Assembly (NCBI GenBank): GCA_026015035.1
Contig: JAOZHB010000021.1
Span: forward strand, 1-52,268
Direction of reading: 5' to 3'
DNA from: Candidatus Bathyarchaeota archaeon
GTDB lineage: Archaea; Thermoproteota; Bathyarchaeia; RBG-16-48-13; GCA-020355125
DNA length: 52,268 bases
Positions 888-33,372 of the stretch are shown piece by piece; position 1 is the first letter of the stretch, and each line of letters opens with the position of its first letter. The notes below the pieces were generated by a model, which saw nothing but the letters and a program-made list of their open reading frames with translations, was not told the DNA's origin and ran no database searches. Both the position numbers and the translations under genes were made by a program.

Positions 888-1440
888 AAATATCGTTGAC
901 CAACAGATTTAGGGGGAGGACGTTGAGGGGTGAACCAGTTACGCTTGATACAAGCTTGGAGAAGAAGTCGGTCACGCTGTAGGAAGATCGCGTGTTTCGG
1001 ACCGTCTCGAAAATATTTTGTGTGTAGAAGGCATGTTACCAATTTGGTAACGGATTTGGTACCACAAGGTGGACACCGCTCGGCTGGTTGATTCCTAGCC
1101 TTTTAGTCGAGCCATGTTGTTAGCGTGCACACGCTAGAAGGGAGGGGTGCCCAGGGTGAGATTTGCACACTAATTTACTAGTAAATCTAGCTAGAAATTG
1201 GCTAGCGCGCGCTAGTGAGTTAGCTAAGACAACCAGCCAAACGGGATAGAGAATAGAGTGCGCGCTAATGTTTGACCAGCCACTCTTCCATTAGGAATAT
1301 TAAATGAGATTAATTGAAAACCTAGTTTTGTGATTCCAAATCGTGCGCTTGAACTAGCTAGCAAGTTTCCTACCCCTATTCTTAGGGATTATCAATATAA
1401 AATGTAGCTAGCTATAAATGTACTGGGTGAATGGATAACT
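888..1440. other. Non-coding spacer rich in CTAG/GCGC palindromes
   Basis: No convincing reading frame on either strand. The second half is dense in short palindromes: CTAG repeats at 1181-1194, CTAGCGCGCGCTAG at 1202-1215, GTGCGCGCTA near 1258, CTAGCTAG at 1354-1361 and TAGCTAGCTA at 1405-1414. These belong to the dispersed family described in the findings. Confidence 0.6.
1202..1215. repeat. Mixed CTAG/GCGC perfect palindrome
   Basis: CTAGCGCGCGCTAG is a perfect 14-base palindrome joining both motif types of the dispersed family, in the spacer before the hemerythrin-like remnant. Confidence 0.7.
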
Positions 1441-1701
1441 ATGTTACCTATTGCTCCGTTAATGATTGAACATCGCATCATTGATCGAATGATACGCTTG
1501 GTCGCCCATGAATATGAAGTCGTAGTCACGACACGCAGTCCTAACGCTGCATTCATTGAGACAGCAGTAGCGCGCGCGCTGACTTCCCAGATATTGCAGC
1601 AATGCTGGAGTGGATTAAATGGAAGGACTACTATCTGCGTTGGGGTAGAGATACGCTGGTTTATGCTATATATATATTCAGAAAACCATAGCGCGTGCTA
1701 G
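1441..1701 (+). pseudogene. Remnant of a hemerythrin/HHE-domain gene interrupted by a GC repeat
   Basis: The first ~15 residues (PIAPLMIEHRIIDRMIRLV) look like the start of HHE cation-binding (hemerythrin-like) proteins, including the first His. After FIETAV the expected downstream His motifs are missing and the sequence loses family character. The change coincides with a TAGCGCGCGCGCT tract at 1568-1580, and the stop lies in another GCGTGCTAG motif. I infer a decayed gene in which the repeat sits at or near the break. At 86 codons it is about half the family length. It could alternatively be an unrelated small protein. Confidence 0.35.
1568..1580. repeat. (GC)n palindrome inside the hemerythrin remnant
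   Basis: TAGCGCGCGCGCT; the reading frame loses family resemblance from here on. Confidence 0.6.
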
Positions 1702-1789
1702 CGAGCATACGAACTAATGAATAAGGGTAATAGCGCACGCGAGTCGTCAGGTAGCTAGCTACGCAAAGGTATTCGCTTTAATTGTATTT

Positions 1790-2092
1790 CTATTCTTGGA
1801 TTCCCGCCTTTTGTGCCCAGGCCACTGCATCTGTTAACTTTAAGACCGGAACGATGTCATTAATATCGCCAACGAGTCGTAGTTGTTCAATGGCTTTATT
1901 AAGCTTCGCACCGTCGTCAGCTTCAACAACTAAATAAAATTGATGACCGGGCCCATCTATATACCCTTCAATTATTGTGACACCAGAAGTCTTACTTTGT
2001 TCTATTAATTTCGCTAAAAATTCTCGATCTGGATGCACTTTTCCACCTGGACACATCACCGCTGTATGTCGATGATAAACTATAAACAACAT
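1790..2092 (-). CDS. Small DUF3303-like / dimeric alpha-beta barrel-type protein
   Basis: A 100-residue protein with the beta-alpha-beta layout of dimeric ferredoxin-fold proteins: a beta start (MLFIVYHR), a conserved CPGGKVHPDRE segment, and GPGHQFYLVVEADD in the centre. I place it near DUF3303/GYD-type proteins; no reaction can be assigned. It is the last member of a minus-strand set of small proteins with the GYD gene (2189-2479) and the cupin (2537-2938), so the three may be co-transcribed. No signal peptide; cytosolic. Confidence 0.55.
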   Translation of the reverse strand: MLFIVYHRHTAVMCPGGKVHPDREFLAKLIEQSKTSGVTIIEGYIDGPGHQFYLVVEADDGAKLNKAIEQLRLVGDINDIVPVLKLTDAVAWAQKAGIQE

Positions 2093-2188
2093 ATTCTAAT
2101 TATCACCCCCTCTCATTTTTTATAATTTATGCGTGTAGTCGTAACTGTTCGTGCGTACAATAGGGTTGGAATATGGTTTCTTGAATAT

Positions 2189-2479
2189 CTATATTTCTTT
2201 CACTAGTTTAATCATTTCTTCTGCTGAGAATCCCGTCAATGTCTCTGTTCTAAGCAGTCCTTTACTACCCCAACTCAGAAGAGCCTTAGTCATTGTCTCT
2301 GCATCTGGCGCTTCACCTATTGCTACAAGATCATAACGTCCCATTGTAAAAATAAGAGAACTTATTTTTACTCCGAACGACTCAAAGACCTTGGGTCCTT
2401 CTTTTATGCTCTCAGGTAAACCCTTTATATTTTCCATCCTTTTCTGAGTGAAATTTCCGAGAATTACAAAAATTGGCAT
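2189..2479 (-). CDS. GYD domain protein
   Basis: This 96-residue protein fits the GYD family: MPIFVILGNFTQKR at the start and the diagnostic GRYDLVAIGEAPD core (residues ~66-78) in which GRYD stands for the family's GxYD. The family fold is a small alpha-beta barrel dimer of unknown biochemical role. A purine-rich AAGGGGAGGTG precedes the ATG on the minus strand, a strong Shine-Dalgarno. It lies between a cupin and a DUF3303-like gene in the same orientation. Confidence 0.8.
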   Translation of the reverse strand: MPIFVILGNFTQKRMENIKGLPESIKEGPKVFESFGVKISSLIFTMGRYDLVAIGEAPDAETMTKALLSWGSKGLLRTETLTGFSAEEMIKLVKEI

Positions 2480-2536
2480 TTTTTCACCTCCCCTTTTTCT
2501 TATTGACGTTTATACGGTTAATGCATGTCAGCTAGC

Positions 2537-2938
2537 CTATGTTGGCTTCTGTGCCTGTAACGCTTCCATGTTCTTCATAATCACGGACATCGTCCGCTCT
2601 TGTTCGGCTTTGGGACTTATTTCCAGAAACTCGAGGCCCTTTACTCCCCGGATCGGGATGTGTCCTGGTTTCATGTAGTATGCTTCGCCCGCCTTGATAG
2701 TCTCTTCATGATCCATGTATTTTAACACGATCTGACCCTTGAAGACATATCCATAATGAGGTGTCTGACACATGTCACCGGGCAACCCTTTAAACAATAA
2801 CGATGGTGGCTCCCAATCTACTTTCACCGTGGTAAAGGACACGACGTAATCGTCCGCCTCAATTGTGCGTACTTCCATTTGCTCGTTACTGAAGGCGATG
2901 GGGATATCGTTTTTCGACGCATGAGTTATCTCTTTCAT
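2537..2938 (-). CDS. Cupin-like small protein
   Basis: Beta-rich protein of 133 residues with a cupin-like middle: HYGYVFKGQIVLKY followed by the turn IKAGEAYYMKPGH. The frame extends 21 codons upstream, but AGGAGGTG lies about 8 bases before the internal ATG at 2938, so I take that as the start. Metal ligands are incomplete compared with classical cupins (few His), so catalysis is uncertain. The stop codon lies beside a GCTAGCCTA motif. It heads the cupin-GYD-DUF3303-like set. Confidence 0.6.
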   Translation of the reverse strand: MKEITHASKNDIPIAFSNEQMEVRTIEADDYVVSFTTVKVDWEPPSLLFKGLPGDMCQTPHYGYVFKGQIVLKYMDHEETIKAGEAYYMKPGHIPIRGVKGLEFLEISPKAEQERTMSVIMKNMEALQAQKPT

Positions 2939-4433: not shown

Positions 4434-4444
4434 TCTAGCTAGCT
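4434..4444. repeat. CTAG repeat between slipin and FAD oxidase
   Basis: CTAGCTAGCT abuts the slipin TGA stop. Confidence 0.6.
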
Positions 4445-6697: not shown

Positions 6698-7062
6698 CAA
6701 GGAATAGAGGGAACGCTCGCTAATAAGACATGTACCTCAGGATGGTAACGCACAACATTCTGCATGTAAAGGAGGAGGATGAAGCGGCTAGCTAGATAAG
6801 ACAGCATGTCCAAATGAAACGTCAATGAGGACTTTAACATAACAAAAAAATACCTCGAATTCCCGAACCCATACGGGGCGGGGAGACTGCGGGGGCATTT
6901 AAACGCTGTTTGTACTTCCTTTTAACAAGCGAGTTATCACAGTCTTGATCACGCACCCTAGGCTCTACATGAATCGAGGAGTGAGGGCCTTGAGATTACC
7001 TTATTGAGGCCTTCTCAAGAATCATACTATCGTTTGATAGTGGAAGAAAAAAATGGGGGTTG
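6698..7062. other. Non-coding spacer between AOR 3' end and SAF gene
   Basis: No supported reading frame. Contains a GCTAGCTAG repeat at 6787-6795 and, close to the AOR stop, two possible hairpins. Confidence 0.5.
6990..7042 (-). terminator. Possible 3' hairpins after the AOR operon
   Basis: Two inverted repeats lie 20-70 bases downstream of the AOR stop: ACTATC/GATAGT around 7027-7042 with a 4-base loop and CTTGAGA/TCTCAAG spanning about 6990-7018. No strong T tract follows, so a termination role is only inferred. Confidence 0.3.
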
Positions 7063-9779: not shown

Positions 9780-10229
9780 AGAAAAGCCAGTAGAGAGAGT
9801 GAAGTGGAAAAGGAGATCGCGAAAAGAAGATAAGGTAAACGGGTCAGACTTGGAGTCCCAGGGCAGCCATTTTTCCCGCAAAGTACGGTAAAAGAGGGAA
9901 CGTGGTGCGAGTCATCTATTTGACAAGAACATAAGCGTGTGCGCTAACGCCAAATAAATCCTAGCGTTCGAAACTACCAGTTAACATAGGTATAGAAAGG
10001 GCATCCCCTTTTGGCTGATGCGTCGAGAAGAGTGAAGAGGCACACGCTAAAAACAGGGGAAGGAACAGTTTGGAGAGCGAGGGCGACGACCTCTCTAAGG
10101 AACCCGTGGCAACTTTCCCGTTCAGAAAAAGCTAACTATCTCATTTAGTCCCTCATACGCCGCTGATGTCGGCATGTGGGAATCCCTTTTTATTTCAAGG
10201 ATACATCCTCTAGTAGGGAGTCAGAAGGT
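9780..10229. other. Non-coding spacer upstream of the M20 peptidase
   Basis: No supported gene. A degenerate repeat AGCGTGTGCGCTA is found near 9934. The stretch CTTTTTATTTCAAGG at about 10187-10201 could hold a TATA element for the peptidase. Confidence 0.4.
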
Positions 10230-11510
10230 ATGATGATGTCAGTTGAAGAGGTCTTCACTCACATTGAGAAGCATCGAAGGGAGTTAGCAGAGGTCTGTTC
10301 TCAGCTGATACAACGTCCCTCAGCGCACCCCGAGGGACGCACTGCGGAATGTGTTACGTACATTCAGGATTACTTCGATCAACTGGGAATCCCCCACGAG
10401 GTCTACAGGAGGAATGAGGAGAAACCGAACATTGTCGTGCGGGTAAAGGGGACTGGAAACAAGAAGATCATGTGGGTTGGCCACCTCGATGTGGTGCCCG
10501 AGGGAACTCCTGAGCTCTGGACTCACCCGCCCTACGGTGGTGAGATTACGGAGGACGGCTTGATCTGGGGACGGGGATCCAGCGATATGAAGGGAGCGTG
10601 CGCAGCAGCAATGGTCGCGGCTCGAGTTCTGAGTGCCCTCAAGGAGGTGCCCAACAGCATAGACTTCTGGTTCACCGCGGACGAAGAGGTGGGAGGCGGC
10701 GACGGGGCGCTTTGGCTTGCCCAGGAACGGCTTTTCGACGGCGATGTGTGCATCATCGGTGACGGAAGCCCCGGAACACCCGAATCCCCAGCAATAGATT
10801 TGGGCTGTAAAGGGGTCGCGGGCGCGAGGCTCAGAGCCCGAGGGCGAACCGCCCATGGGAGTCGACCCTTCTTGGGGGATAACGCCCTGGATAAGCTCCT
10901 GAAGGTGATTCCTTATGTGAAACAAATCGCCGATTATCCACTTGAGGTTCCCGACGAATTGGAAGCCACTGTCGCGGCAACCATTGAGTACATGATGAGG
11001 GAGGAGTTCGACGAAGACCAACAGAACGCCCTTACGAGACTCTTCAACTACCCCTCGGTGACTCTGAACCTCCTCAACGGGGGTGTCAAGACCAATGTCG
11101 TCCCCGACTATGCTGACGCCTACTTCGATATCCGCCTCACCCCAGGGAGTAATCCCGTCAAGGTTAGAGAGCGAATCTCCGCACTCGTCAAAGCTGCGGG
11201 GGAACCCGAGGTAACCGTGGAGTTTCCTCGGCCCTCAAAGACCGCGGGTTACTACGATTCCCCTAACACCCCCTTTGCCCGACAGCTCGCAGAGGTCGTT
11301 GAGAAGGCAACGGGGAACCAGCCCATATATAAGCTACTCACAGGGGGCACCGATGCTGTCAGAATCAAGCAGTTCATCGACCTCCCGTGTCTGGGCTTTG
11401 GATCGAGTATAGAAGCTCAAGCACATTCTCCGAACGAGCATAACAGCGTCGAACTGCTCGATATGAGTTGTAAGGTTTACGCAGCCTTCCCGTTGATCTA
11501 CAAGGGTTGA
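10230..11510 (+). CDS. M20 family metallopeptidase / ArgE-DapE-like deacylase
   Basis: About 426 residues with the M20 di-zinc site: GHLDVVPEG (His and catalytic Asp), WGRGSSDMKGA (bridging Asp), ADEEVGGGDGA (catalytic Glu pair) and the lid-domain GRTAHGSRPF with its His; the last ligand His lies in AQAHSPNEHNS. The family hydrolyses N-acyl amino acids or short peptides in the cytosol; DapE, ArgE and dipeptidase roles cannot be separated here. The ATG at 10230 follows AGAAGGT and is preferred to an upstream ATG at 10176. An AGCGCGCGCGCT palindrome begins at the base after the TGA stop. Confidence 0.85.
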   Translation: MMMSVEEVFTHIEKHRRELAEVCSQLIQRPSAHPEGRTAECVTYIQDYFDQLGIPHEVYRRNEEKPNIVVRVKGTGNKKIMWVGHLDVVPEGTPELWTHPPYGGEITEDGLIWGRGSSDMKGACAAAMVAARVLSALKEVPNSIDFWFTADEEVGGGDGALWLAQERLFDGDVCIIGDGSPGTPESPAIDLGCKGVAGARLRARGRTAHGSRPFLGDNALDKLLKVIPYVKQIADYPLEVPDELEATVAATIEYMMREEFDEDQQNALTRLFNYPSVTLNLLNGGVKTNVVPDYADAYFDIRLTPGSNPVKVRERISALVKAAGEPEVTVEFPRPSKTAGYYDSPNTPFARQLAEVVEKATGNQPIYKLLTGGTDAVRIKQFIDLPCLGFGSSIEAQAHSPNEHNSVELLDMSCKVYAAFPLIYKG

Positions 11511-11522
11511 AGCGCGCGCGCT
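11511..11522. repeat. AGCGCGCGCGCT palindrome abutting the M20 stop
   Basis: Perfect 12-base palindrome starting directly after TGA; a shorter copy AGCGCGCGCT lies at 11620-11629. Confidence 0.75.
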
Positions 11523-11669
11523 TTCCCTATTATGTGTTCGATTGGCGTTGTCTCTTTACTCATGTTATTCACGCCGTATGTTTGCCTTCGTTTTGCACAT
11601 GAATTGATACACCGTTCATAGCGCGCGCTTGAAACATGTATGTAGCAAACAAGTATCAGGCCATATATC

Positions 11670-12595
11670 TTAACCTTCTTTTTTGGACACTATTACTTTT
11701 ACGCGATGTAACCTCCCTAATCCCGAAGGATAAGCGTCTTTCCCGTCGATTTGAACTCTTCCCCTTTCATCAATCGCCCTAGCAGTCACCACATAAGGCC
11801 CCTCTGCTGGAGGAACCCAAAGAAGTCACCATATGACCCAGGCATAGTGGTGTGTAGGCCTCCAGATGATCTTTGCTGGGTTCCACGTTAGGCCCTTGTC
11901 AAAGCTGACGTCTACACGATGGATCGGTTTCTCCCCACCCCAAGAGACACCGGCTATAAAGTAGGGCTTCCTGTTAATGACCTCATCGTTATGGGGTTTC
12001 AGGATCTTTGTTGTAAGCACAACTTTCTTAGATTTTACTAATTTCATAGATTTTAGCCATTGAGGATCCGCGTATTTCACCTCTGTCAAGATAAGTTCCT
12101 TCAGCCACTTTCTCCATAAGAAACCATAATACCCTGGAACCACCAGTCTCAGGGGAAACCCATACTCGACGGGGAGGGTCTGTCCATTCATCTCGTAAGC
12201 TAAAAGCGTTAAGGGATTTTGAAAAAAGTCCAACGGTAAACATCGATTTACGCCATCTTCACTTTTACAAAAAAGTTCTACAGTTCCCTCTTTAACCTCT
12301 ACCTCATTTAATATGTCTCTAAGCGGAACACCTGACCAGATCTCAGTTCCCACTAACCAACCTCCAACTGGGTTTATTGCACACTCCATGGTTATCACCT
12401 CAGAAACGCGGGGATAACTCTCAGTCAATTCTTCATAGGAACGCTCCACGGACTTATGAACTGATCCACCTACCTTTAGAACCCATTTGTTGACGTCGAT
12501 TTTGGAGCCCTTTTAACGGGATAGGATAAAAAATCTTCTATCTTCGTTATGGGATGGAGAACATTTCCATCGCCCAAAGATATTTCCTCAATCAT
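11670..12595 (-). pseudogene. Sulfite-oxidase-family molybdopterin enzyme, broken by a frameshift and an in-frame TGA
   Basis: The longest open piece (12449-11826) carries the family core: TMECAINPVGGWLVGTEIW with the Mo-ligand Cys, then GVPLRDIL, LPVEYGFPLRLVVPGYYGFLW and the C-terminal beta domain HRVDVSFDKGLTW. Upstream, an ATG at 12593-12595 opens a frame (IEEISLGDGNVLHP, YPVKRAPK) that joins family sequence IDVNKWVLKVGG only after a one-base shift at an A run near 12501. Downstream, the same frame continues past a TGA at 11826-11828 with PPAEGPYVVTARAIDERGRVQ, which is the normal family ending, to TAA at 11670-11672. Two lesions argue for a pseudogene, but sequencing error or recoding is not excluded. 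A signal peptide is not seen. Confidence 0.65.
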
Positions 12596-12620
12596 GTTTA
12601 AGACACCTTCAACTAAACTG

Positions 12621-12646
12621 GCTAGCTAGCTAATAGCACGCGCGAG
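12621..12646. repeat. GCTAGCTAGCTA followed by AGCACGCGCGAG
   Basis: CTAG tandem and a degenerate GC tract side by side, upstream of the sulfite-oxidase-like pseudogene. Confidence 0.6.
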
Positions 12647-12742
12647 ATTGATGTTCCTGCCTTCAAGCAACCAAATCATCTCCTAACCGACTAAGCTAAC
12701 CAGCTAAATGTATGAATCTTGAGATATAAATACCCACACAAA

Positions 12743-12781
12743 ATCCTCACCCGCGCATCCGCCTGAATCTAATCTAGTTAG
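12743..12781. repeat. Dispersed ~38-bp repeat, copy 1
   Basis: Shares CTCACNCGCNCATCCGCCTG, then AATC and TAGTTAG, with 23200-23236. Both copies have a TATA-like A/T-rich stretch tens of bases before them (GATATAAATA here), so a small transcript is possible. Confidence 0.45.
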
Positions 12782-12801
12782 CACTAAATAGATAAATAGA
12801 A

Positions 12802-12810
12802 AGCGCGCGC
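12802..12810. repeat. AGCGCGCGC tract abutting the MFS stop
   Basis: Lies two bases from the TGA stop of the MFS gene on its 3' side. Confidence 0.6.
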
Positions 12811-12812
12811 AC

Positions 12813-14030
12813 TCACATCCTTGGTTTTTCTCCTTCTGGTTTGATGTCCTTAAAAAGGAAGTACATTAGGCTCGCTGAAGCAAGTCGGAATGCGGACGCA
12901 AAATAGAAGGGTAAATCTATTGACACATATTCGAAGAAGTATCCTGTAAGACTAGGAATTCCAGCGGATGTTACTCCCCTCACGACGGTTACGACTCCCA
13001 CCGCAGATGCCCTACTTCGGCTCTTGATCACTCCCATTAAATATGATTGGCGGAGGGGAACATCTATGCTAGAGAACAAAGACATGAAAAGTCGTAGAAT
13101 AGCCACCAACATATAACTCGGCATAAGTGGAGTGAGTATTGTTCCAACGACCACTGGAAGACGAGAGATAACTGTTGCTCTTATTGTTCCCACTCTATGA
13201 GCCATCTTAAGACCGAGAACGTATGAGAAAAGTGTCAGGAATCGCGTTAATCCAAACAAGGTGCCAATCTGTCCGAGTCCGACACCGAACCTGAGATAAT
13301 ACCAATACGACAAGAATTTTCCTGTGAACGATCCGCCAACGATGTCCAAAGCGATGACTCCCGACCATTTTATAAGAATCATGCGTTCGTCTTTATCAGG
13401 ATCATCAACATTCTCAACCGTCGTTGAACTTCTACTCATTGTCTCGTTAAGAAGCGTGAAAAATAAGAAGGTTACAACACCAATCACAGCAAATATCATG
13501 AAGATCGGTTTATATGATTCAATCTCGGAAAATCCTATGGATTGAAATGTCTCAGGCAATACTGCTGAGAATGATCCGAAAATTGATCCAATCGTTCCAA
13601 GGAAGGCATTAACACTGAAAGCAGTAGTTCTCTCATCGCTCGAAACTTTCTCCGTCAACATCGCCTGCTCTGCTGGCGTGTATCTGACACCAACACCGAA
13701 TATCACAGCTGTGACCATAAGAACCGAAATATTATTAGTCAAAGCCATGATGACTCCTCCAACAACTATTAACCCAGAAGTGAAGAGGAGGACTGGCTTC
13801 CTCCCGTATCGGTCTGCCATCATTCCTTCCAATAGACTGCGGAAGGCAGAAAACAGAGCCACCCCAGTGAAAGTCAAGCCGATTGCGACTGAAGAAGCTC
13901 CTAGTTTGCTTAGATATATTGAGAAGATCACGCTGAGAATAGCAGAGCCGAAACTTCGGAGAACGCGAGTCGTTACAAGGATTTTCACATCTCTGGGAAA
14001 AGCTCTTAGAACCAATAGTCCGCTAAACAT
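12813..14030 (-). CDS. MFS transporter
   Basis: A 405-residue protein with 12 predicted membrane segments and the major-facilitator signature between helices 2 and 3 (MADRYGRKPVLL). The central loop (about residues 190-215) is charged, as usual between the two six-helix halves. Substrate cannot be named; the family includes drug, sugar and metabolite exporters. It follows, on the same strand, a GNAT acetyltransferase whose stop at 14052 lies just upstream, so the two may be one unit, for instance acetylation plus export. Confidence 0.85.
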   Translation of the reverse strand: MFSGLLVLRAFPRDVKILVTTRVLRSFGSAILSVIFSIYLSKLGASSVAIGLTFTGVALFSAFRSLLEGMMADRYGRKPVLLFTSGLIVVGGVIMALTNNISVLMVTAVIFGVGVRYTPAEQAMLTEKVSSDERTTAFSVNAFLGTIGSIFGSFSAVLPETFQSIGFSEIESYKPIFMIFAVIGVVTFLFFTLLNETMSRSSTTVENVDDPDKDERMILIKWSGVIALDIVGGSFTGKFLSYWYYLRFGVGLGQIGTLFGLTRFLTLFSYVLGLKMAHRVGTIRATVISRLPVVVGTILTPLMPSYMLVAILRLFMSLFSSIDVPLRQSYLMGVIKSRSRASAVGVVTVVRGVTSAGIPSLTGYFFEYVSIDLPFYFASAFRLASASLMYFLFKDIKPEGEKPRM

Positions 14031-14047
14031 GAATAATCACGAGCACA

Positions 14048-14059
14048 CTAGCTAGCTAA
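14048..14059. repeat. CTAGCTAGCTAA repeat containing the GNAT stop
   Basis: The TAG stop of the acetyltransferase (minus strand) is inside this tandem; another CTAGCTAG is found at 14551-14558, just upstream of the same gene. Confidence 0.65.
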
Positions 14060-14543: not shown

Positions 14544-14613
14544 CCTTCAACTAGCTAGTTACACCGAGTTTACCAAGATGATTGATGAGATTAAAGACTT
14601 ACCGAAGTGATAC

Positions 14614-14625
14614 TTAGCGCGCGCT
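14614..14625. repeat. TTAGCGCGCGCT palindromic tract
   Basis: In the short spacer between the LarA-like gene 3' end and the GNAT gene. Confidence 0.65.
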
Positions 14626-14651
14626 CTACTTCATTATTCAATCTAGTTAGC

Positions 14652-18286: not shown

Positions 18287-18323
18287 GATACAGTTCTAAT
18301 TGATAACCAAACATAACATTTGG

Positions 18324-20177: not shown

Positions 20178-20237
20178 TCATTCCACTATCGTTAGGAGGA
20201 GGTATAAAGGATACCTGGTCTCTTAGCTAACTCATTA

Positions 20238-20254
20238 AGCGCGCGCGCTAGCTA
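20238..20254. repeat. AGCGCGCGCGCTAGCTA composite repeat
   Basis: Full GC palindrome fused to a CTAG tandem in the spacer before the secreted protein at 20373. Confidence 0.7.
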
Positions 20255-20372
20255 TAAGTCAATCATTAATTATTAGTAAATTAGTTTCGTAAATGTTATA
20301 AGAATTAAGTACATAATAAGCATTAACAATATACATAATAATTTTATAATGAAGTATGGAGAGTGTAGATTA

Positions 20373-20951: not shown

Positions 20952-21094
20952 CTAGTTAGCCAATTACTCGAGCGCGTACCGATTTCCTCAGGGAAGTTGT
21001 CGCCGATATCGCGCGATAGTGTTAGCTGGAGATTCAGAATTATTCTTCATAACAGCTTTATAGTACCTTCTTAAACGTGTTTAAGGATGTAATT

Positions 21095-21913
21095 TTGAAG
21101 AAGCGAATATCCTCAACGATTATGTTAAGCGTAATACTTTTACTGTCTTTGACGACTGTTACTGTGACATCTGTTGCATCTCCTCTTCAAGTCACCAAGC
21201 TGATGGATAAACCATCGTGGGCGGGTAACCCTGGTGGACCTAACGGTGGGGACGATGGTGAAGACACGACCGGTACTTATGTGTTGAATATCGAGATAGA
21301 CTACATGGAGGGACATGAACCAACACCAGAAGTATTAGATTACATAGTCAATTACTATGAAGCAAAGGGAATAGACGTGACGTTCTATCTTGATGGTTAT
21401 CCTGAAGACATTGTTATTAGCGAAGAGGTGCCACTTGCCAGTGAAGGCTGGAATGCGGTTGACGGTATTTCTGATAGTGAATTCGCAACTATTGAAGCTG
21501 AATACAATAATAATGACAATGGATACTTCGATAATTGGAAATGGGTTCTATTTGGAACAACCGTTGAAGGCGAACCCGATGTGGTGGGATACTGTTGGGT
21601 GCTGATAAGCGGTAAGGATTATGTGACTGGAAACTACATCTTCATAGCGGATGAGACTGCTGACGAATGGGGTGGCTCTGACGATCAACTCGTAATAGGG
21701 GCAGAGGCGTCGGTTCTGATGCATGAGATGGGACACAGCATAGGCATAGGTAAATTACACCCCAAGTTTGGGGAAAAATATGACCCCGATTCAGGTAGTG
21801 TCATGAGCTACCTCTCAGAAGTAAATGCGGGACTCTACGAGATGTGGTACTACAGCGACGCATACTGGGCCACGAGAAATATGGAGTATTACGAAGAAGA
21901 GCTGGTTACCTAA
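21095..21913 (+). CDS. Secreted zinc metalloprotease-like protein with a variant metzincin motif
   Basis: Signal peptide (KKRISSTIMLSVILLLSLTTV), a Gly/Asn/Asp-rich linker (NPGGPNGGDDGED), then a domain ending in LMHEMGHSIGIGKLHP (about residues 209-223) with HExxH for zinc and general base, a Gly, and a third His two places later than in classical metzincins (HExxHxxGxxxxH). SVMSYLS supplies the Met-turn about 15 residues on. I infer a secreted endopeptidase. The TTG at 21095 follows AAGGATG; a GTG lies at 21077. It may work with the neighbouring secreted protein. Confidence 0.65.
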   Translation: MKKRISSTIMLSVILLLSLTTVTVTSVASPLQVTKLMDKPSWAGNPGGPNGGDDGEDTTGTYVLNIEIDYMEGHEPTPEVLDYIVNYYEAKGIDVTFYLDGYPEDIVISEEVPLASEGWNAVDGISDSEFATIEAEYNNNDNGYFDNWKWVLFGTTVEGEPDVVGYCWVLISGKDYVTGNYIFIADETADEWGGSDDQLVIGAEASVLMHEMGHSIGIGKLHPKFGEKYDPDSGSVMSYLSEVNAGLYEMWYYSDAYWATRNMEYYEEELVT

Positions 21914-21967
21914 CAAATAAGAGCTAACACCTCTTTCTTTTTTCACTTACGCTTTTATATTAAGCTA

Positions 21968-22004
21968 TTAGCTAGCTAACTCGACACCATGGGACGCGCG
22001 CGCG
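21968..22004. repeat. TTAGCTAGCTAA and ACGCGCGCGCG repeat pair
   Basis: Both motif types 15 bases apart between the metzincin-like gene and the ICMT-like gene. Confidence 0.65.
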
Positions 22005-22118
22005 AGAAATATTCTCGTTTTGTTAGCTTTATTGAATTATTTTCTAAGAAACACATCGTAATGTTTTTCTTGATAACAGTTTTCCAACCAGTTATCTGGA
22101 TAAAGGAAGGTAGGGTGT

Positions 22119-22628
22119 ATGAGTGAAGGTGCACTAAGGAAACTGGATATAAAAGAGGATTGGGCAGGCATACTTTACATCCTCGTCGCGAGCAGTGGCT
22201 TCATCGTATCCTTATACGACTTCGTCGTCATCCAAAACCTGAATTTTCGGGTAAACATCTCGGTAATCTTCGGTATCCTACTGCTGATTATAGGAGGCAT
22301 CTTGAGGATTACAAGCAGAAAAGCGTTGATGAAAGCCGGGTTCGGTTTAGTGAATAGTGGTCGTCTCCAGATCGTTGAAGACCAGCAACTAGTAACCGAC
22401 GGCGTTTATCAGCATGTCCGTCACCCCCTCTACCTCGGGGAGATTACCCGGAACCTTGGATTCGCAATAACGCTTTCTAGCTTAGTTGGGTTTATGGTCA
22501 TGTTGGTTGGCAACGTATTCCTAGTTCTCAGACTTGAGATTGAGGAAAAGATGCTCATCGAAGAGTTGGGTCAAGGGTATACCGAGTACCGGAAAAGGAC
22601 AAAAAAACTAATACCTTTTATCTACTGA
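22119..22628 (+). CDS. ICMT-like integral membrane methyltransferase
   Basis: 169 residues with four to five membrane helices and the family's C-terminal catalytic pattern: VRHPLYLGEI (RHPxYxG binds S-adenosylmethionine) and a distal ...EEKMLIEELGQGYTEYRKRTKKLIP. Isoprenylcysteine carboxyl methyltransferase/PEMT relatives in prokaryotes methylate small lipophilic substrates at the membrane; the substrate here is unknown. SD-like GGAAGG precedes the start. A second, longer ICMT-like gene is at 24065-24733. Its TGA is followed after three bases by CTAGCGCGTGCTA. Confidence 0.8.
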   Translation: MSEGALRKLDIKEDWAGILYILVASSGFIVSLYDFVVIQNLNFRVNISVIFGILLLIIGGILRITSRKALMKAGFGLVNSGRLQIVEDQQLVTDGVYQHVRHPLYLGEITRNLGFAITLSSLVGFMVMLVGNVFLVLRLEIEEKMLIEELGQGYTEYRKRTKKLIPFIY

Positions 22629-22630
22629 AA

Positions 22631-22686
22631 CTAGCGCGTGCTATAGCTAGCTATCTGCGTACAGGTTTTTCTTCGTAAGCACGCGC
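22631..22686. repeat. CTAGCGCGTGCTATAGCTAGCTA cluster between convergent genes
   Basis: Three adjacent motifs (imperfect GC palindrome, CTAG tandem, ACGCGCG) fill the gap between the ICMT-like gene and the convergent zinc-ribbon gene. Confidence 0.65.
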
Positions 22687-22688
22687 GT

Positions 22689-23060
22689 TTATCGACGGGT
22701 TAAGCGATATACAACTCCAGAAATGATCAGTATTCCAACGATGATTATCGCGATAGGCCCTAGATAACTCCATATGTTTATGTTTGCTAGCAAAGCGAAT
22801 CCGAGGATAAGAATTATGACGCCAAAAATTATTCCCACAATTGCACCGCCATGGGGGAGACCGAAACATTCATCCTTAAACTCTCGTTCCATTTGCTTTC
22901 CCCAATTTTCAGCACGCTTACCAAAATCTTCTCCCCACTCGTCTACTCGTCTCTCCCAGTCCCATTTTTTCTCCTGTGAACTGGTTAGGTTTTCCCCGCA
23001 CTTAACACAGAAGGTAGCATCATCCGAATTTTTCACACCGCACTTCACGCAATAGACCAT
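22689..23060 (-). CDS. Zinc-ribbon membrane protein
   Basis: The ATG at 23060 gives 123 residues. An N-terminal zinc ribbon (YCVKCGVKNSDDATFCVKCG, two CxxC pairs) is followed by a charged, Trp-rich helix (about residues 33-65) and two C-terminal membrane helices (GAIVGIIFGVIILILGFALL and YLGPIAIIIVGILIISGVVY). Proteins with this plan are common and uncharacterised in archaea; the ribbon would face the cytoplasm. It is convergent with the ICMT-like gene and single. Confidence 0.7.
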   Translation of the reverse strand: MVYCVKCGVKNSDDATFCVKCGENLTSSQEKKWDWERRVDEWGEDFGKRAENWGKQMEREFKDECFGLPHGGAIVGIIFGVIILILGFALLANINIWSYLGPIAIIIVGILIISGVVYRLTRR

Positions 23061-23199
23061 AACAATTATCACTTCATTTAGCACTCAATACTCTAGATAG
23101 CTATATTAGGTTAAATTATAAGTTTACTAGCTAGCTGTATGCTTACGTATTTAAGGGCAAAAAGCCTAGATAAAACCGTTCTGTTTCCCCGCACATAAT

Positions 23200-23236
23200 T
23201 CTCACTCGCTCATCCGCCTGAATCGAGTATAGTTAG
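23200..23236. repeat. Dispersed ~38-bp repeat, copy 2
   Basis: CTCACTCGCTCATCCGCCTG followed by AATC and TAGTTAG; matches 12743-12781 with few differences. A TATTTAAGGG stretch lies about 50 bases upstream. Confidence 0.45.
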
Positions 23237-23238
23237 TT

Positions 23239-23270
23239 GGGATTAAAATTTAATCCCCAAACCCAAACCC
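23239..23270. repeat. GGATTAAAATTTAATCC palindrome with CCCAAACCC tail, copy 2
   Basis: A 17-base perfect palindrome continued by a CCAAACCCAAACCC tail; matches 23963-23995. It directly follows copy 2 of the 38-bp repeat. Confidence 0.55.
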
Positions 23271-23286
23271 TAAAAAAAATAAAATA
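23271..23286 (-). terminator. T-run after the PNPOx-like gene
   Basis: On the minus strand a TTATTTTATTTTTTTTA tract lies about 65 bases downstream of the PNPOx-like stop, a plausible archaeal T-rich terminator. Confidence 0.35.
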
Positions 23287-23348
23287 AGAGAGGGGATTAG
23301 GAGCTGTCAGCGGATTGTTAGTGAATAACCTCCTCTATTCGATACCTG

Positions 23349-23807
23349 TTACGTTAAGAGTTTGTCAAATCCTTGTTGAGCCATCGCTTTCAGTTTATCG
23401 GTGAGCTGAACTCGAATCCCCTGCGATATGGGCACCCATGTGAGTGCATCGCTTTTCACTTCCAAGATGTCAATCTCGACCATAACCACTTGGAAGGGAT
23501 AGCTCTCCATCCGTTCTTTAATGACATGAGCGTGTCCTCGAATACCTAACGCGATGTTACCTTCAGCCAGCACACACACCATCACCTTGCCGTCACGTAT
23601 AATGTTCGCAAAGGTTCGTTTGCTTGGACCGATTCCTACACGCAGAGTCTTCCGATCGAGGGCACGGAATATGCCATAGGGCGCGGTCCTAGGGAAACCA
23701 TCCTCATCAACCGTCGCAATCACAACGTGCGTGGATTGCGTATGTAGGAACTCAAACGCATTTTGCGGTAACTCGTCTCCCAATACGTCTACTGGCACAG
23801 TCAACAC
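23349..23807 (-). CDS. Pyridoxamine 5'-phosphate oxidase-like FMN-binding protein
   Basis: 152 residues with the split-barrel FMN-binding pattern: THVVIATVDEDGFPRTAPYGIFRALDRKTLRVGIGPSKRTFANIIRDGKVMVCVL, closely following the PNPOx/flavin reductase fold in which a strand-turn-strand over the DGxPxxxP segment holds the FMN phosphate. The substrate is unknown; F420- or heme-related variants are also possible. No ATG is present near the start; GTG at 23807 or the TTG after it is used. Confidence 0.75.
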   Translation of the reverse strand: MLTVPVDVLGDELPQNAFEFLHTQSTHVVIATVDEDGFPRTAPYGIFRALDRKTLRVGIGPSKRTFANIIRDGKVMVCVLAEGNIALGIRGHAHVIKERMESYPFQVVMVEIDILEVKSDALTWVPISQGIRVQLTDKLKAMAQQGFDKLLT

Positions 23808-23962
23808 CTTATAAAAATAATAATCTGGTTCTGGGATTTAAGACTTCAAACAAAAGAGAAAGAAAAAGCGCGTGCTATCGACGCAGAGCAAGTTTCTGAT
23901 TAACTTATATCTTAATTATGAGATAACTATTCATTTAATTTGGTCTTTAGTTAGCTAGCTTT

Positions 23963-23995
23963 GGGACTAAAATTTAGTCCCCAAACCCAAACCCC
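23963..23995. repeat. GGGACTAAAATTTAGTCCC palindrome with CCCAAACCC tail, copy 3
   Basis: A 19-base perfect palindrome followed by CCAAACCCAAACCCC. A CTAGCTAG tandem (23950-23960) abuts it. On the complementary strand three G-runs spaced by TTT are produced. Confidence 0.55.
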
Positions 23996-24064
23996 TAAGG
24001 TAATGATAATTAAATAAAAGGTGAAAATAAGTAGAATTGTTAACAGCTACGTGGGGGGGTTTGT

Positions 24065-24733
24065 ATGAAAGAGAGGGATGATGGAAAAGTAAGGGATATA
24101 GAGGATAGACTTCAGAAAGGGGAGATTAATCACAAAGAGGCATATAAAATACTAATTGAAAGAGGATTTACCGAAAGTGGAGCAAGCATCGCGCGCGCGG
24201 GTTTACTAGTCTTATTTATTGCCTTATGGATTGCGTTTTTTGCTCTATGGCTGCTTCCCCCTATTTCAAAATCACTAAATCTAGATGTTCTAGCGTTCTT
24301 CAGCGGGCTGCAGAGCTTCACAATTCCATTGGTCGTTATATATGTATCAATTTTTATATTCGCACTTGGTACCGTTCTTTTTATCTGGGCTAACCTTACA
24401 CATAAAGCCAGAGGCGGGATTAACAGAGCTGATGAAACAATTATATTTCACAGGGAGGGGCTTTACAAGTTTGTAAGACACCCACAAAATCTAGGCGGTG
24501 GTACATGGTTCATATTTTTACCAGTTATTCTAAGTCAATACACCCACTTCACAATCCTTACGGTTTTCGCCATCGCCTCGATGATTGTATACATATACAT
24601 CGCATCACATCTAGAAGAAAAAAACAATATAGAGAAATGGGGCGATGAATACCGACAATACTTGAGAGAAGTCCCAAGATTCAACATACTTTTGGGGGTT
24701 TGGAGACATATTAGGAGAAAGAAATCAAAGTAA
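24065..24733 (+). CDS. Second ICMT-like membrane methyltransferase with a short cytosolic N-terminal domain
   Basis: 222 residues: a charged ~40-residue N-terminal helix pair (RLQKGEINHKEAYKILIERGF, SHOCT-like in character), four to five membrane helices, the SAM-binding FVRHPQNLGG and the distal HLEEKNNIEKWGDEYRQYLREVPRF. In the family RHPxYxG the Tyr is replaced by Gln-Asn here. Substrate unknown. A CGCGCGCGCG run at 24191-24199 encodes Ala-Arg-Ala just before the first membrane helix, which looks like the intergenic repeat but within a gene. GGGGGGG upstream of the ATG may act as the ribosome binding site. Confidence 0.75.
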   Translation: MKERDDGKVRDIEDRLQKGEINHKEAYKILIERGFTESGASIARAGLLVLFIALWIAFFALWLLPPISKSLNLDVLAFFSGLQSFTIPLVVIYVSIFIFALGTVLFIWANLTHKARGGINRADETIIFHREGLYKFVRHPQNLGGGTWFIFLPVILSQYTHFTILTVFAIASMIVYIYIASHLEEKNNIEKWGDEYRQYLREVPRFNILLGVWRHIRRKKSK

Positions 24734-24936
24734 TTCACGAATGGGTCAACAACTTAGCTCTATACTTCGAAAATTGGTATGAAAAAATAAAGGGATATTC
24801 CATCTGAATTAAAAGAATAGTTGTCAGGCTAAAGGTTTTGGAGTCATACAGAACGTTCTCATTCTTCACATGCCCTATAATTATTTTAAAATACTGACCA
24901 TAAGAATTCTATCCTTTAACATTTAGCGTGCTCATA

Positions 24937-25146
24937 CTATAGCGCGCGCGCTACTTGTACACCCCCACTTCCCCAGTTCTCAAACTCAACGTCATCAATG
25001 ATAACAGTAACATACGGAATCAATTTCTCTTTTGGATGGGGACGAGCCTCGATCTCAGTCACGACCTCACTGACCCGTGCGATCATTTCCTGTTTCTGCT
25101 CCTTCGATAACGTTCCTTTCAACACTTTAATATTGATAAATGGCAT
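24937..25146 (-). CDS. 4-oxalocrotonate tautomerase family protein
   Basis: 69 residues starting Met-Pro (PFINIKVLKG), so after Met removal the catalytic N-terminal Pro1 is exposed; then TLSKEQKQEMIARVSEVV and YVTVIIDDVEFENWGSGG complete the 4-OT beta-alpha-beta unit. These tautomerases form hexamers and interconvert enol/keto acids. An AAGGAAAGGTG sequence lies just upstream as Shine-Dalgarno. The last residues (VARAL) and the TAG stop are written by the palindrome TAGCGCGCGCGCTA, so the family's own C-terminus seems to run into the repeat. Confidence 0.85.
   Translation of the reverse strand: MPFINIKVLKGTLSKEQKQEMIARVSEVVTEIEARPHPKEKLIPYVTVIIDDVEFENWGSGGVQVARAL
24940..24953. repeat. TAGCGCGCGCGCTA perfect palindrome at the tautomerase stop
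   Basis: Full-length 14-base copy of the GC element; encodes Ala-Arg-Ala-Leu and overlaps the stop region. Confidence 0.8.
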
Positions 25147-25760
25147 GTCGTTTCACCTTCCTTTTCTTCTTGGTACTTGTAGGGCTCCCCACCTCGGAGC
25201 TCGATCACAAATCACTTCATCTTTTAGTGCTATATCGTATTTATGACTATGCCTTCGAGATACAAAGAATAGAAGAGAGGTGTTTAACTGCTTGTGGTGG
25301 CTTGTGGCTGTCGTTTCTTCATCTCGTTGTAAAGGTACTCGAGACTGGTATAGAGTCTCGGGGTGCTCCGAAGTTGCCAAGAATGTTGTCGTATAGGGTT
25401 CATAGATGCCCACCACCAAACGATTCGGTCAGATCATAGGTCATCAAATAGACGTATGTCAAGTAACCCTCTTTTGACGGGCACCCCCATAGCGCACGCT
25501 AAATAGAAAGAAGCAAATCCACATTTTTCCTTAAGAAACCCTTGCTTTGCTGCTTCTTTGTTTTACCAGCTTATCGTCATCCTCATGTAAGAGACTGATG
25601 AGGTTATTACGTACATTATGAGCCTTTGAGTGTGAGATATCGAGAAGACACACGCGTGATAAGTGTTATGTTCTCTCTAGAGTTAACGACCGTAGTATAG
25701 ATAAGAGGGGAAAACCCTGAGGATAAGCGTAGGTGAAAGCGTCAAACTAGGGACTGCTGA
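25147..25760. other. Spacer without a supported gene
   Basis: Open frames on both strands (25140-25439 plus, 25153-25419 minus) show no recognisable family or composition. A degenerate repeat ATAGCGCACGCTA lies at about 25490. The minus strand carries the promoter region of the tautomerase. Confidence 0.4.
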
Positions 25761-27860: not shown

Positions 27861-28231
27861 ATGTCTTAAATCGCAGAACCTAATATGTTTTCCACCGAAA
27901 CGAGAGTAGCGTGAACCAGAGATTTTCCACCAAAGCTCGATCCATAGTAGATAGATATGTGCTCAATACGTGGTTAGCAGTGACATAACACCTGTTTAGG
28001 CGAAGTCGAAGCAGTCTCACCGGGAGTTCTACCACGGAGGATCATTTCGGTGCGCTTACACAGTAATATACTACCTCAAAGCATCAACGTTTAAGAAGCT
28101 GATTCAAGAAGACCTAATAGCTAGCTAGCAGAAGCTGTTCCAGCGGTACCGATTTTCGTTTAGGCTTCGGGCTAGCGGATTTACGAATTGACGTTAGAAC
28201 GTTCATACGACCGTCTGTTCGGGTGTGATGT
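27861..28231. other. Spacer with CTAG tandem, no supported gene
   Basis: ATAGCTAGCTAGC occurs at 28118-28130; nothing else is recognised. Confidence 0.4.
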
Positions 28232-28483: not shown

Positions 28484-28996
28484 TTGTCGTGGTATGGATC
28501 ACATTCATTTCTCAACGAATACATCTGCGAAAATACGTGTAAGAGGATCATGGAGATTGGGGTTTATACTGGTGAAAACGCGAGGACCATGGTTGAGGCA
28601 GCTGTCCGAAATGTTCCACCAGGCGAAGTAGAATACTACGGCTTCGACTTTTTCATGGGCGCTAGGTTACGGGAGGTGAGGCAGAAGTTGGAGAAGACAG
28701 GATGCAAGTTTCAACTTTTCAAAGGAGATACTGTTGACACGCTTCCTAAAGTCGTGACGACTCTGCCTATAATGGACGTAATCTTCATCGACGGAGGTAA
28801 ATCGTATTCAGAGGCGAGGAGCGACTGGGAGCACGCAAAAACCCTCATGCATGATGGAACGGCGGTATTCGTCCATAACGTTGATTTTTCAGGCGTCCGA
28901 TCCATGGTGGACAGCATTTCCCGAAGTCAGTATCGAGTTAAGTTGTTTCGCGCGCCCTTCGAAGGCGAGGTAGCCTTAATCAAGAAGAAGACTTAG
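28484..28996 (+). CDS. Class I SAM-dependent methyltransferase (Methyltransf_24-like)
   Basis: 170 residues: motif I is CKRIMEIGVYTGENARTM, strand 2 EYYGFDFF, strand 4 MDVIFIDGGKSYSEARSDWEHAKTLMHDGTAVFVHNV with the FIDGxHxY-type signature (here GKSY in place of GxHxY). Members methylate sugars, catechols or unknown small molecules. Start is TTG at 28484, with GGAGGGAGAT shortly upstream. The TAG stop is inside TTAGCTAGCTAG. Confidence 0.75.
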   Translation: MSWYGSHSFLNEYICENTCKRIMEIGVYTGENARTMVEAAVRNVPPGEVEYYGFDFFMGARLREVRQKLEKTGCKFQLFKGDTVDTLPKVVTTLPIMDVIFIDGGKSYSEARSDWEHAKTLMHDGTAVFVHNVDFSGVRSMVDSISRSQYRVKLFRAPFEGEVALIKKKT

Positions 28997-29004
28997 CTAG
29001 CTAG
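28993..29004. repeat. TTAGCTAGCTAG repeat supplying a stop codon
   Basis: The TAG stop of the methyltransferase is the first unit of this tandem. Confidence 0.7.
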
Positions 29005-30686: not shown

Positions 30687-30698
30687 GCTAGCTAGCTA
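30687..30698. repeat. GCTAGCTAGCTA tandem
   Basis: Upstream of the MBL-fold gene, in the divergent region with the AbgB-like gene. Confidence 0.65.
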
Positions 30699-31555: not shown

Positions 31556-31568
31556 CTAGCTAGCTAGC
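31556..31568. repeat. CTAGCTAGCTAGC tandem
   Basis: Longest perfect CTAG tandem in the window, 32 bases after the MBL-fold stop. Confidence 0.7.
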
Positions 31569-31941
31569 CAAAGTACTGCACACAACATTATGGCATAATC
31601 TAGAGTCGCCAGTTCCCGAATTTTCCATACCGATAGCAATTTCTAGCTAGGTATTATTGACACCATTATCGTTTTACAGGTCCTGCTATGCCTATTACCC
31701 CAGAACCCTTTCAAATAACCACACGACGTTTCTATTCTGGATGAGGAACTGAAACATAGGATACGCATGTTAAATTCTGTTGGTACGGTGGGACAAGACT
31801 GACTAATTATAAACATATTACAATCATATTTGCCAAAGATAATCATAGAGCATGATAAATCGACAGTCTATAATAATAATTAGTAAGCAACCCCCACCAA
31901 AAAATTCCACCATTATTCTAAACAAGCTACTGGTAACATGG

Positions 31942-32218: not shown

Positions 32219-32392
32219 GTAGGAAATGGTTATTCTACTGCCACCAGGTACAGAAGCGTCTTCACGCAGTGTACACATCCACGTCTAAAAAGGAATATTG
32301 TAGATTCAGCCTCGTACGTCAAAGCTAAGATAAAAAGATAAAAAATCCTTGAAGGTGCTTATACTCTTTTGAAAAACTTCTTGGATGAGAAA

Positions 32393-32400
32393 CAATATAA
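32393..32400 (+). promoter_or_regulatory. TATA element for tRNA-His
   Basis: CAATATAA lies about 29 bases before the first base of the mature tRNA-His, the usual archaeal TATA-box distance for a tRNA. Confidence 0.45.
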
Positions 32401-32428
32401 GATTGATGTGGTTTTTCAAAGGACGTGT

Positions 32429-32558
32429 GGCCGCTGTAACGTAGAGGAAAGTAGAAGCTTTCCGCGGAATCTGGCAGCGTACTGGCCTGACGAAGACTTC
32501 CCTTCGAAGCTTCGGGCTAATGGAGCCAGGAGGTGGGGTTCAAATCCCCACAGCGGCC
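32429..32558 (+). tRNA. tRNA-His (GTG) with two introns, one splitting the anticodon
   Basis: The ends pair as an 8-bp acceptor including G-1:C73 (GGCCGCTG/CAGCGGCC), which is specific to tRNA-His, with T arm TGGGG-TTCAAAT-CCCCA. Removing 32448-32474 (27 nt, D loop; boundary ambiguous by two bases) and 32490-32520 (31 nt) leaves 72 nt: D stem ACGT/GCGT with loop AGAGGCA, anticodon stem CTGGC/GCCAG and loop CTGTGGA, anticodon GTG. The exon junction falls between G34 and T35. The second intron contains CGAAG/CTTCG, leaving a TGA bulge that fits bulge-helix-bulge cutting. If only a canonical 37/38 intron were removed the anticodon would read GAC (Val), but C73 and G-1 argue against it. Confidence 0.8.
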
Positions 32559-32666
32559 CTCAGACAATAACCAACGATTAAGCAGTTTAACACATCATCG
32601 ACGGAGTTTATTCCTTTTTCTCAAGTCTTATAACCCTATCAGGTAATAGGATATATGATGTTTTAG

Positions 32667-33350
32667 ATGGATAGGGATGCGATGACGGCCTTAGAAAAGT
32701 TGAGGTTTGTTAGAGGAGTGATTTTTGAGGCCATCGTTTCAACGTATACTCCAGATGGAAGACCTAACGCGGCGCCGATGGGTGTAGTATCGGATGACAT
32801 GAGACACCTGGCGATCAGTCCCTTTACAACGACGCAAACCTTTACAAACCTAAAACGTGGTGGATGCGCAGTCGTTAACTTCGTTGCCGACGCCTCTACC
32901 TTCTACAAGACCGCCTTCAAAAACGAGGGAGTGAAAAGTGCTTACGGCGACGATTTTTTTAAAAGGGCTGAGGTTGTTGACGCCCCCCAGTTGAAGGAAG
33001 TCGACGCCCTTCTAGAAGTGTCTGTAGTGAAGCTACAAGAAGAGGAGAACCGCGCGCAGGTTATTTGTCGGATAGACCGCTGGGAACGGAGGACTTCGCG
33101 GTTTCAACCATATTGCAGAGGGGGCTTCGCGGCGATAGAAGCCATAATCCATGCCACACGCATCAGGATGTTCCTCGCCCAGGGCAGTGAAGGTGAAGCG
33201 AGAAGGCTGATGGAATTGGTTGAGTACTATCAACAGTTAATTGCGAGGGTCGCGCCTGACAGCGAGTATTCAAGTATCATAGAGGACGTCATTGCTAGGA
33301 TCGACGTTTGGAAAGAGAAGTCAAGTCTCAAGGAGTCATCCTTCGTCTAG
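32667..33350 (+). CDS. DUF447 family protein
   Basis: 227 residues with DUF447 character: GVIFEAIVSTYTPDGRPNAAPMGV, where the split-barrel flavin-like fold and the NAAPMGV motif are family hallmarks, then ISPFTTTQTFTNLKRGGCAVVNFVAD and the later C-terminal helical part GGFAAIEAIIHATRI. The function is not established. From memory, DUF447 genes occur in C1/H4MPT gene sets of archaea and methylotrophic bacteria, and here it opens a run of pterin genes. The TAG stop is the first base group of CTAGCTAGCGCAGCTAGC. Confidence 0.8.
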   Translation: MDRDAMTALEKLRFVRGVIFEAIVSTYTPDGRPNAAPMGVVSDDMRHLAISPFTTTQTFTNLKRGGCAVVNFVADASTFYKTAFKNEGVKSAYGDDFFKRAEVVDAPQLKEVDALLEVSVVKLQEEENRAQVICRIDRWERRTSRFQPYCRGGFAAIEAIIHATRIRMFLAQGSEGEARRLMELVEYYQQLIARVAPDSEYSSIIEDVIARIDVWKEKSSLKESSFV

Positions 33351-33372
33351 CTAGCGCAGCTAGCACGCGCTA
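33347..33372. repeat. Composite CTAGCTAGC / GCTAGCACGCGCTA repeat, last dense copy
   Basis: Supplies the DUF447 stop codon. It is the rightmost complete member of the repeat family in the window; only one degenerate CTAG cluster follows, near 43760. Confidence 0.7.

Follow-up and report, generated by a model that had tools for sequence, protein, structure and literature searches.

Palindromes in the window

The window analysed here, bases 1-52,268 of contig C46, belongs to a metagenome-assembled genome (MAG) of the Bathyarchaeia (G000; 2.06 Mb in 146 contigs, completeness 88%, contamination 7.4%) and carries numerous short palindromes of two families, (AGCT)n and (GC)n, which are the subject of this study. 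The IF2-like protein has its nearest counterparts in Candidatus Bathyarchaeota genomes. A palindrome was defined as a maximal run of (GC)n, or of (AGCT)n irrespective of phase, with a length of at least 8 bp (at least 7 bp where indicated). Thirty-six of them are found in the window, the first at 1187 and the last at 33347-33355, and 34 of these are intergenic according to our own, home-made gene calls. The comparison was made with G001, a MAG of the same genus in which the aligned DNA is mostly 85-89% identical. The palindromes, and the segments that differ between the two genomes, are the following:

1187..1194, (AGCT)n run CTAGCTAG
1205..1212, (GC)n run within TAGCGCGCGCTA (1203-1214)
1354..1362, CTAGCTAGC
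1405..1414, TAGCTAGCTA
1570..1579, (GC)5 within AGCGCGCGCGCT
1752..1761, TAGCTAGCTA
4435..4444, CTAGCTAGCT; G001 homology stops at 4436
6787..6795, GCTAGCTAG
9926..18325, 8.4-kb segment not at this place in G001; its ends share TATTTGACAA and join without a palindrome
11512..11521, (GC)5, immediately 3' of the stop of the M20 peptidase gene 10176-11510
11621..11628, (GC)4
12621..12632, GCTAGCTAGCTA
12803..12810, (GC)4, adjoining the 3' end of the MFS gene 12813-14030
14048..14058, CTAGCTAGCTA, overlapping the 3' end of the GNAT gene 14052-14543 (minus strand)
14551..14558, CTAGCTAG
14617..14624, (GC)4 within TAGCGCGCGCT
16005..16012, (GC)4
17033..17042, (GC)5
17723..17731, CGCGCGCGC, with neighbour GGCTAGCT at 17708
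18244..18253, (GC)5 within TAGCGCGCGCGCTC
18794..18842, composite junction CGCGCTAGCGCACGCTA..GCTAGCTA; 42 bp (18800-18841) versus 224 bp in G001
19366..25667, 6.3-kb segment; G001 has 367 bp instead
19612..19621, (GC)5, at the 3' end of the methyltransferase open reading frame (ORF) 19599-20177
20239..20254, joined run GCGCGCGCGCTAGCTA
21969..21978, TAGCTAGCTA
21995..22004, (CG)5
22631..22653, composite CTAGCGCGTGCTATAGCTAGCTA, directly after the ORF 22119-22628
23127..23136, CTAGCTAGCT
23952..23960, TAGCTAGCT
24190..24199, (CG)5
24942..24951, (GC)5 within TAGCGCGCGCGCTA
28118..28129, TAGCTAGCTAGC, replacing 247 bp of G001; both flanks 86-89% identical
28994..29004, TAGCTAGCTAG, giving the stop codon to the ORF 28484-28996; G001 homology stops at 28994
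30687..30698, GCTAGCTAGCTA
31556..31568, CTAGCTAGCTAGC
31643..31650, CTAGCTAG
33345..33373, composite GTCTAGCTAGCGCAGCTAGCACGCGCTAC, 29 bp, replacing 10 bp (TTTTGACGAT) of G001
43759..43776, degenerate copy TAGCTAGGTGTGCTAGCT, the sole trace in the right third

Both motif families are indeed present where a first-pass annotation of the window had placed them, as are its side-by-side copies (1187/1205, 20239/20247, 21969/21995 and the composite at 33347) and its degenerate cluster near 43760. The figure of about 40 copies given there holds for the family when shorter and one-off forms are included, but the exact 12-mers are fewer, with six copies of AGCGCGCGCGCT and one of CTAGCTAGCTAG (31556). 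The annotation had also restricted the family to the left two thirds. The left part has 2.53 palindromes per intergenic kb, and the right third has none in 3.5 kb of intergenic DNA, where the rate across the genome predicts 6.0 (Poisson P=0.0024). The scarcity in the right third is thus real, yet the family extends over the whole genome, with TAGCTAGCTA alone counted 207 times in G000.

The composite at 33345-33373 provides the stop codon of the gene 32667-33350, which, as read from the two sequences, is TAG here and TGA in G001. The segment at 9926-18325 is flanked by a 10-bp direct repeat, TATTTGACAA, that is single in G001, and represents either an insertion or a deletion. Within 1-34000, single accessory genes lie between the palindromes, namely AOR, M20 peptidases, MFS, GNAT, a Mo-co (molybdenum cofactor) oxidoreductase and methyltransferases.

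Abundance and form of the palindromes

Statistics of 8-mers were obtained from 322 kb of G000 with an order-2 model, and those of density and length from 612 kb. The only strongly over-represented 8-mer families are (AGCT)n and (GC)n, with 98 copies of CTAGCTAG observed against 2.4 expected (41x), 70 of GCGCGCGC against 2.5 (27x) and 45 of TAGCTAGCTA against 0.14. The palindromes are mostly intergenic: (AGCT)n runs of at least 8 bp occur at 1.63 per intergenic kb versus 0.05 per coding kb, and (GC)n runs of at least 8 bp at 0.56 versus 0.013, which makes the palindromes 30-50 times denser between genes than within them. For (AGCT)n this ratio is partly trivial, because TAGCTAGCTAG has stop codons in all six frames; (GC)n is not affected in this way. 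Scaled up from the 612 kb, the total would be about a thousand copies per genome. The checks against a Markov expectation and gene positions proposed in the first-pass annotation revealed neither chance counts nor a lack of positional preference. CTAG, which it described as usually among the rarest tetranucleotides of prokaryotes, is not rare here and occurs about 2.7 times per kb in the G000 sample. Another string, CCCAAACCCA / TTGGGTTTGG, is also over-represented between genes (about 40-55x in G000) and is apparently unrelated to the palindromes.

The run length of the palindromes reaches about 13 bp and then stops. There is no fixed core, and the four phases of (AGCT)n, both phases of (GC)n and lengths from 7 to 16 are found. 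For (GC)n, even lengths are favoured and the next base is T (78%), then A, giving TA-GC..GC-TA; apart from these T-A flanks, the surroundings of the palindromes are featureless beyond +2. One-off variants are mostly C-to-T or G-to-A, which matches the expectation for neutral decay. Ordinary microsatellites growing by slippage would also be simple repeats of rotatable phase, as both families are, but no other di- or tetranucleotide unit is conspicuous for its length, the runs do not extend past about 13 bp, even lengths and T-A flanks are favoured in (GC)n, and a slippage mechanism would not put repeats at the edges of homology, as described below. This explanation was rejected on the length spectrum and the presence of only two units, and is considered very improbable.

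Palindromes at the edges of homology

G000 (862 kb) was aligned with G001 (about 210 kb) as one close genome pair, with block edges taken as BLAST ends. Inside aligned blocks, noncoding DNA is 82% identical and coding DNA 88.5%. Given that noncoding DNA is alignable within the blocks, most block ends represent a true loss of homology. Palindromes of at least 7 bp were found at 38 of the 141 block edges, from -3 to +15 bp, where 8.6 were expected from positions matched for gene end and distance (z 10.4, a value somewhat inflated by a few edges that share one palindrome). The narrower interval from -3 to +5 yields 21 for 5.2 expected. Since the excess persists under this matched null, proximity to gene ends was rejected as its cause. 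Masking a dispersed element of about 475 bp, described below, leaves palindromes at 28 of 122 edges versus 7.8 expected (z 7.6), for which reason this element was rejected as the sole cause. Seven control repeats (CGAT, AAAG, AG, AAT, AAG, TTAA and AATT) occur on block edges at expectation. The centres of 23 palindromes lie 0-20 bp outside the edge and those of 4 just inside, with about 3.5 per bin farther out.

The same is seen from the side of the palindromes. In G000, 44 palindromes have one or both flanks conserved, and 32 of them are one-sided (32:12), versus 130:160 for random intergenic positions (45%; Fisher P=4e-4), and in G001 the proportion is 30 of 36 (30:6), versus 366:598 (38%; Fisher P=5e-8). 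It is highly probable that the palindromes mark junctions and not conserved sites.

A palindrome with conserved DNA on both sides often corresponds to unrelated bases in the other genome. One such patch reads ccgaatta[GCGCGCGCGCGCG]gcgg in G000 and ccaaatta[CGTCATAATTTTAG]gcgg in G001. In L045, 13 bp of (GC)n stand in place of 14 unrelated bp (CTAAAATTATGACG), and in L034 CGCGCGCGACGCGTG stands in place of CACAAACACCAT. In the window the same holds for 28118-28129, 18800-18841 and 33345-33373. By parsimony, random bases would have become palindromes and not the reverse, although the change is unpolarised, with only two genomes aligning. Short extra sequence at the junctions of deletions and rearrangements, which is characteristic of end-joining filler, is present in these unpolarised events.

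The location of the palindromes relative to genes brings in the alternative of a regulatory or 3'-end site under selection (terminator, processing site, six-frame stop, insulator or protein-binding site), with homology merely stopping near gene ends. Indeed, palindromes are about twofold enriched within 20 bp after stop codons and depleted over the last 40 bp before starts, and 41 of the 685 genes terminate within one. Nonetheless, the junction excess persists with gene-end distance matched, and convergent, tandem and divergent gaps all have palindromes. A conserved regulatory site was rejected because palindromes inside blocks are 71% identical between G000 and G001, less than their flanks (79%), and a terminator was rejected given that no T-tract was found 3' of the palindromes (T5 in 8.6%, versus 5.4% of genes without a palindrome). 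Selection for such a site is an improbable explanation. The role in 3'-end processing or termination listed in the first-pass annotation is weakly touched by the excess after stops and the 41 genes, but finds neither a T-tract nor conservation between relatives. A protein landing site and a methylation target, also listed there, predict conservation or a fixed phase, neither of which is seen; the flanks are random as well.

HIP1, a highly iterated palindrome (HIP) of cyanobacteria, is not restricted to intergenic DNA. Methylation-linked mutation or a bias of mismatch repair, as proposed for HIP1, could write palindromes that are short, heavily iterated, lineage-specific and patchy, as are HIP1, the alternate HIPs and the palindromes described here (PMC4390886). 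HIP1 differs by its fixed 8-mer core and its link to a methyltransferase (PMC4390886). The palindromes of G000 have no fixed core or phase and are 30-50 times denser between genes, whole patches are replaced instead of changing by stepwise substitution, and they are located at junctions. There is little to recommend such a bias as their origin.

A proposed origin by end joining

We give about an even chance to the proposal that the palindromes are made by end joining via self-complementary filler. After a break, the loss of anything from a few bases to thousands, or the uptake of a fragment, the ends would be joined, and the joined ends would carry a self-complementary repeat of 7-16 bp, (TAGC)n or (GC)n. 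What the two repeats have in common is self-complementarity in each of their phases, together with GC steps, and because of this a tailed end could anneal to any other tailed end regardless of its own sequence. Equal loss and gain would leave a patch and larger loss a deletion, while a third fragment would give an insertion and ends from two loci a rearrangement. Such scars would persist chiefly between genes, being selected out of coding DNA, and would decay by point mutation. The order, with tailing followed by annealing, is inferred. This model would account for one-sided junctions, deletions, equal-length patches and composites of two palindromes, as well as for random phase and flanks and for both repeat types in one genome.

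The dispersed element bears on this proposal. It is noncoding and measures about 475 bp, and about 20 copies of it lie in the portions of G000 and G001 that were sampled, among them those at L011:13178-13670, L045:16545-17005, L162:1186-1680, L009:4078-4536 and L020:32338-32791, besides the G001 copies. It begins with AGCTAGCTAGCT-TTTTGAATTTACAG and finishes with CATTCAA-AGCTAGCTAGCT, with an inner TTTGAAT inverted repeat. The inner boundary of the palindrome is fixed; its outer length is variable, at about 7-13 bp. The DNA beyond the element is unrelated in every copy except the orthologous-site pair L011/L136. Palindromes unique to single copies are found at truncations (L069, L149 and L005) and at small replacements (CGCGCGCGCT for GAGCGTC in L009; CGCGCGCT in L005). 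Given that these stand where other copies have none, the element may combine inherited terminal palindromes with new ones formed at breaks.

Like miniature inverted-repeat transposable elements (MITEs), this element has terminal inverted repeats, many copies and unrelated flanks, and it is the only structure here that does; inspection by eye found no obvious target-site duplication outside its palindromes. The foremost alternative is that the palindromes are pre-existing hot spots, either ends of mobile elements (this MITE-like family and others now decayed beyond recognition) or short shared sites for exchange by a recombinase or by strand annealing. Movement of DNA at such sites would then be the reason why palindromes mark junctions. 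The element bounded at both ends by AGCTAGCTAGCT between unrelated flanks speaks for it, as do the edges of dispersed repeats, which carry palindromes, and event 15, where G000 has two palindromes 3.9 kb apart and G001 a single one. Nonetheless, long alleles can be free of palindromes at their ends (window 28118), equal-length patches and new palindromes at element truncations are not products of recombination between existing palindromes, and the two unrelated repeat types occur in any phase and with variable outer length. Unlike MITEs, most palindromes stand alone between unrelated flanks, and no element can be recognised from one to the next. Pre-existing hot spots are a serious but rather unlikely explanation. 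Of the roles considered in the first-pass annotation, a minimal mobile palindrome comes closest, as the palindromes turn over, mark inserted or deleted DNA and bound an element, but they appear as marks of junctions and not as a self-moving unit.

Several observations weigh against the origin by end joining. At edges, (AGCT)n is strong but (GC)n alone is weak (4 versus 1.7 expected, z 1.8). At about 4 of the 21 edges with a palindrome within 10 bp, the other genome has one there as well, and some palindromes may predate their junction. Many junctions have none, such as 9926/18325 with its 10-bp direct repeat; event 15 fits recombination sites better; and the dispersed element nearly always ends in a palindrome, resembling inherited terminal repeats. 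The events are unpolarised and the filler may be parental, and the model does not call for the twofold excess after stops. Both readings may also be true, with scars later serving as short homologies or element ends.

Spread among relatives

Copies of TAGCTAGCTA number 207 in G000, 90 in G001 and 81 in G003, a one-contig genome of the same family and another genus, while other sampled members of the class have 0-9. For AGCGCGCGCT the counts are 65 in G000, 94 in G003, 42 in G004, 97 in G054, 28 in G051 and 26 in G072. The string TAGCGCGCGCTA recurs in other, distant families of the same phylum, with a patchy distribution within one genus (28 copies in G093, 14 in G128, 9 in G114, and 0 in G107 and G141) and in another (12 in G261, 0 in G290). 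It follows that the strings arise or spread repeatedly. The reversed control ATCGATCGAT is frequent (8-29 copies) in G004, G011, G023, G048 and G057, where a different tetranucleotide repeat, likewise self-complementary, may have this role.

Contig C51 of G000 (L164), with a GC content of 37%, is nearly devoid of palindromes, has hardly any match to the same-genus genome and is probably a contaminant in the bin. An artefact of assembly or library preparation has to be considered, given that G000 and G001 are fragmented MAGs and that the former has 7.4% contamination. Such an artefact would not shun coding DNA 30-50-fold and, moreover, palindromes are absent from the probable contaminant contig of the same bin. 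G003, a complete chromosome identical to CP070659.1 over the compared stretch, has the same intergenic restriction, T-A flanks and excess just after stop codons, which makes an artefact very unlikely, indeed scarcely credible. Outside genes G003 is too distant for orthologous comparison with G000, and the junction test inside G003 gave no signal either way, as its repeats are too few.

Candidate enzymes and known systems

Ku (PF02735) was not found in G000, G001, G003, G051, G054 or G072 and is present in 13 of 81 genomes, including G004. With G000 88% complete, the absence of single genes is soft. Ku-dependent non-homologous end joining is unlikely, given that co-occurrence with Ku fails and the palindrome-rich genomes lack it except G004. 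Family-A polymerase (PF00476) is absent from G000, G001 and G003, and end joining of the Pol theta type was rejected on this basis. Filler DNA of that type resembles the palindromes as a short insert at the junctions of deletions and rearrangements. In eukaryotes it is copied from nearby DNA or is random, and the palindromes differ in being one of two self-complementary repeats.

The best candidate, by analogy, is a Ku-independent activity like that of the archaeal primase PriSL, which is described in Ku-less Saccharolobus islandicus as able to carry out terminal transfer, to anneal ends through 2-4 GC pairs and to promote break repair (PMC12019639). The likeness lies in the lack of Ku and in small indels at breaks; the PriSL products in the cited passages are mostly indels of 1-2 bp, and those passages report no (TAGC)n or (GC)n tracts or genome-wide scars (PMC12019639). 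Template-free polymerases carry out ab initio synthesis of repetitive DNA in vitro, and palindromic repeats are mentioned among the products, with no link to genomic scars and, as in the PriSL passages, no such palindrome strings in the passages cited (PMC13061963). Repetitive extragenic palindromic (REP) sequences are likewise multi-copy intergenic palindromes, but they are stem-loops, mostly of 10-30 nt (PMC12306157). The palindromes described here are perfect self-complementary runs, in which neither a loop nor a conserved sequence outside the repeat was found. No earlier description of them was found in the open-licence papers searched.

The finding bears on how Ku-less archaea join broken DNA. 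It is conceivable, though we hold it with some doubt, that a Ku-free route tails ends so that any two become cohesive, and that it has independently reshaped the DNA between genes in several Thermoproteota lineages, where its joins can still be read. If an unseen mobile system instead has the palindromes as its ends or targets, the reach of the finding would be similar. If they are scars, existing genomes hold a record of thousands of repair events, in which the sequence would show what the enzyme adds, the flanks what is lost, and presence or absence within a genus would point to the gene. Such scars would also explain the fast turnover of intergenic DNA and gene order in this group, and would serve as a marker for recent rearrangements.

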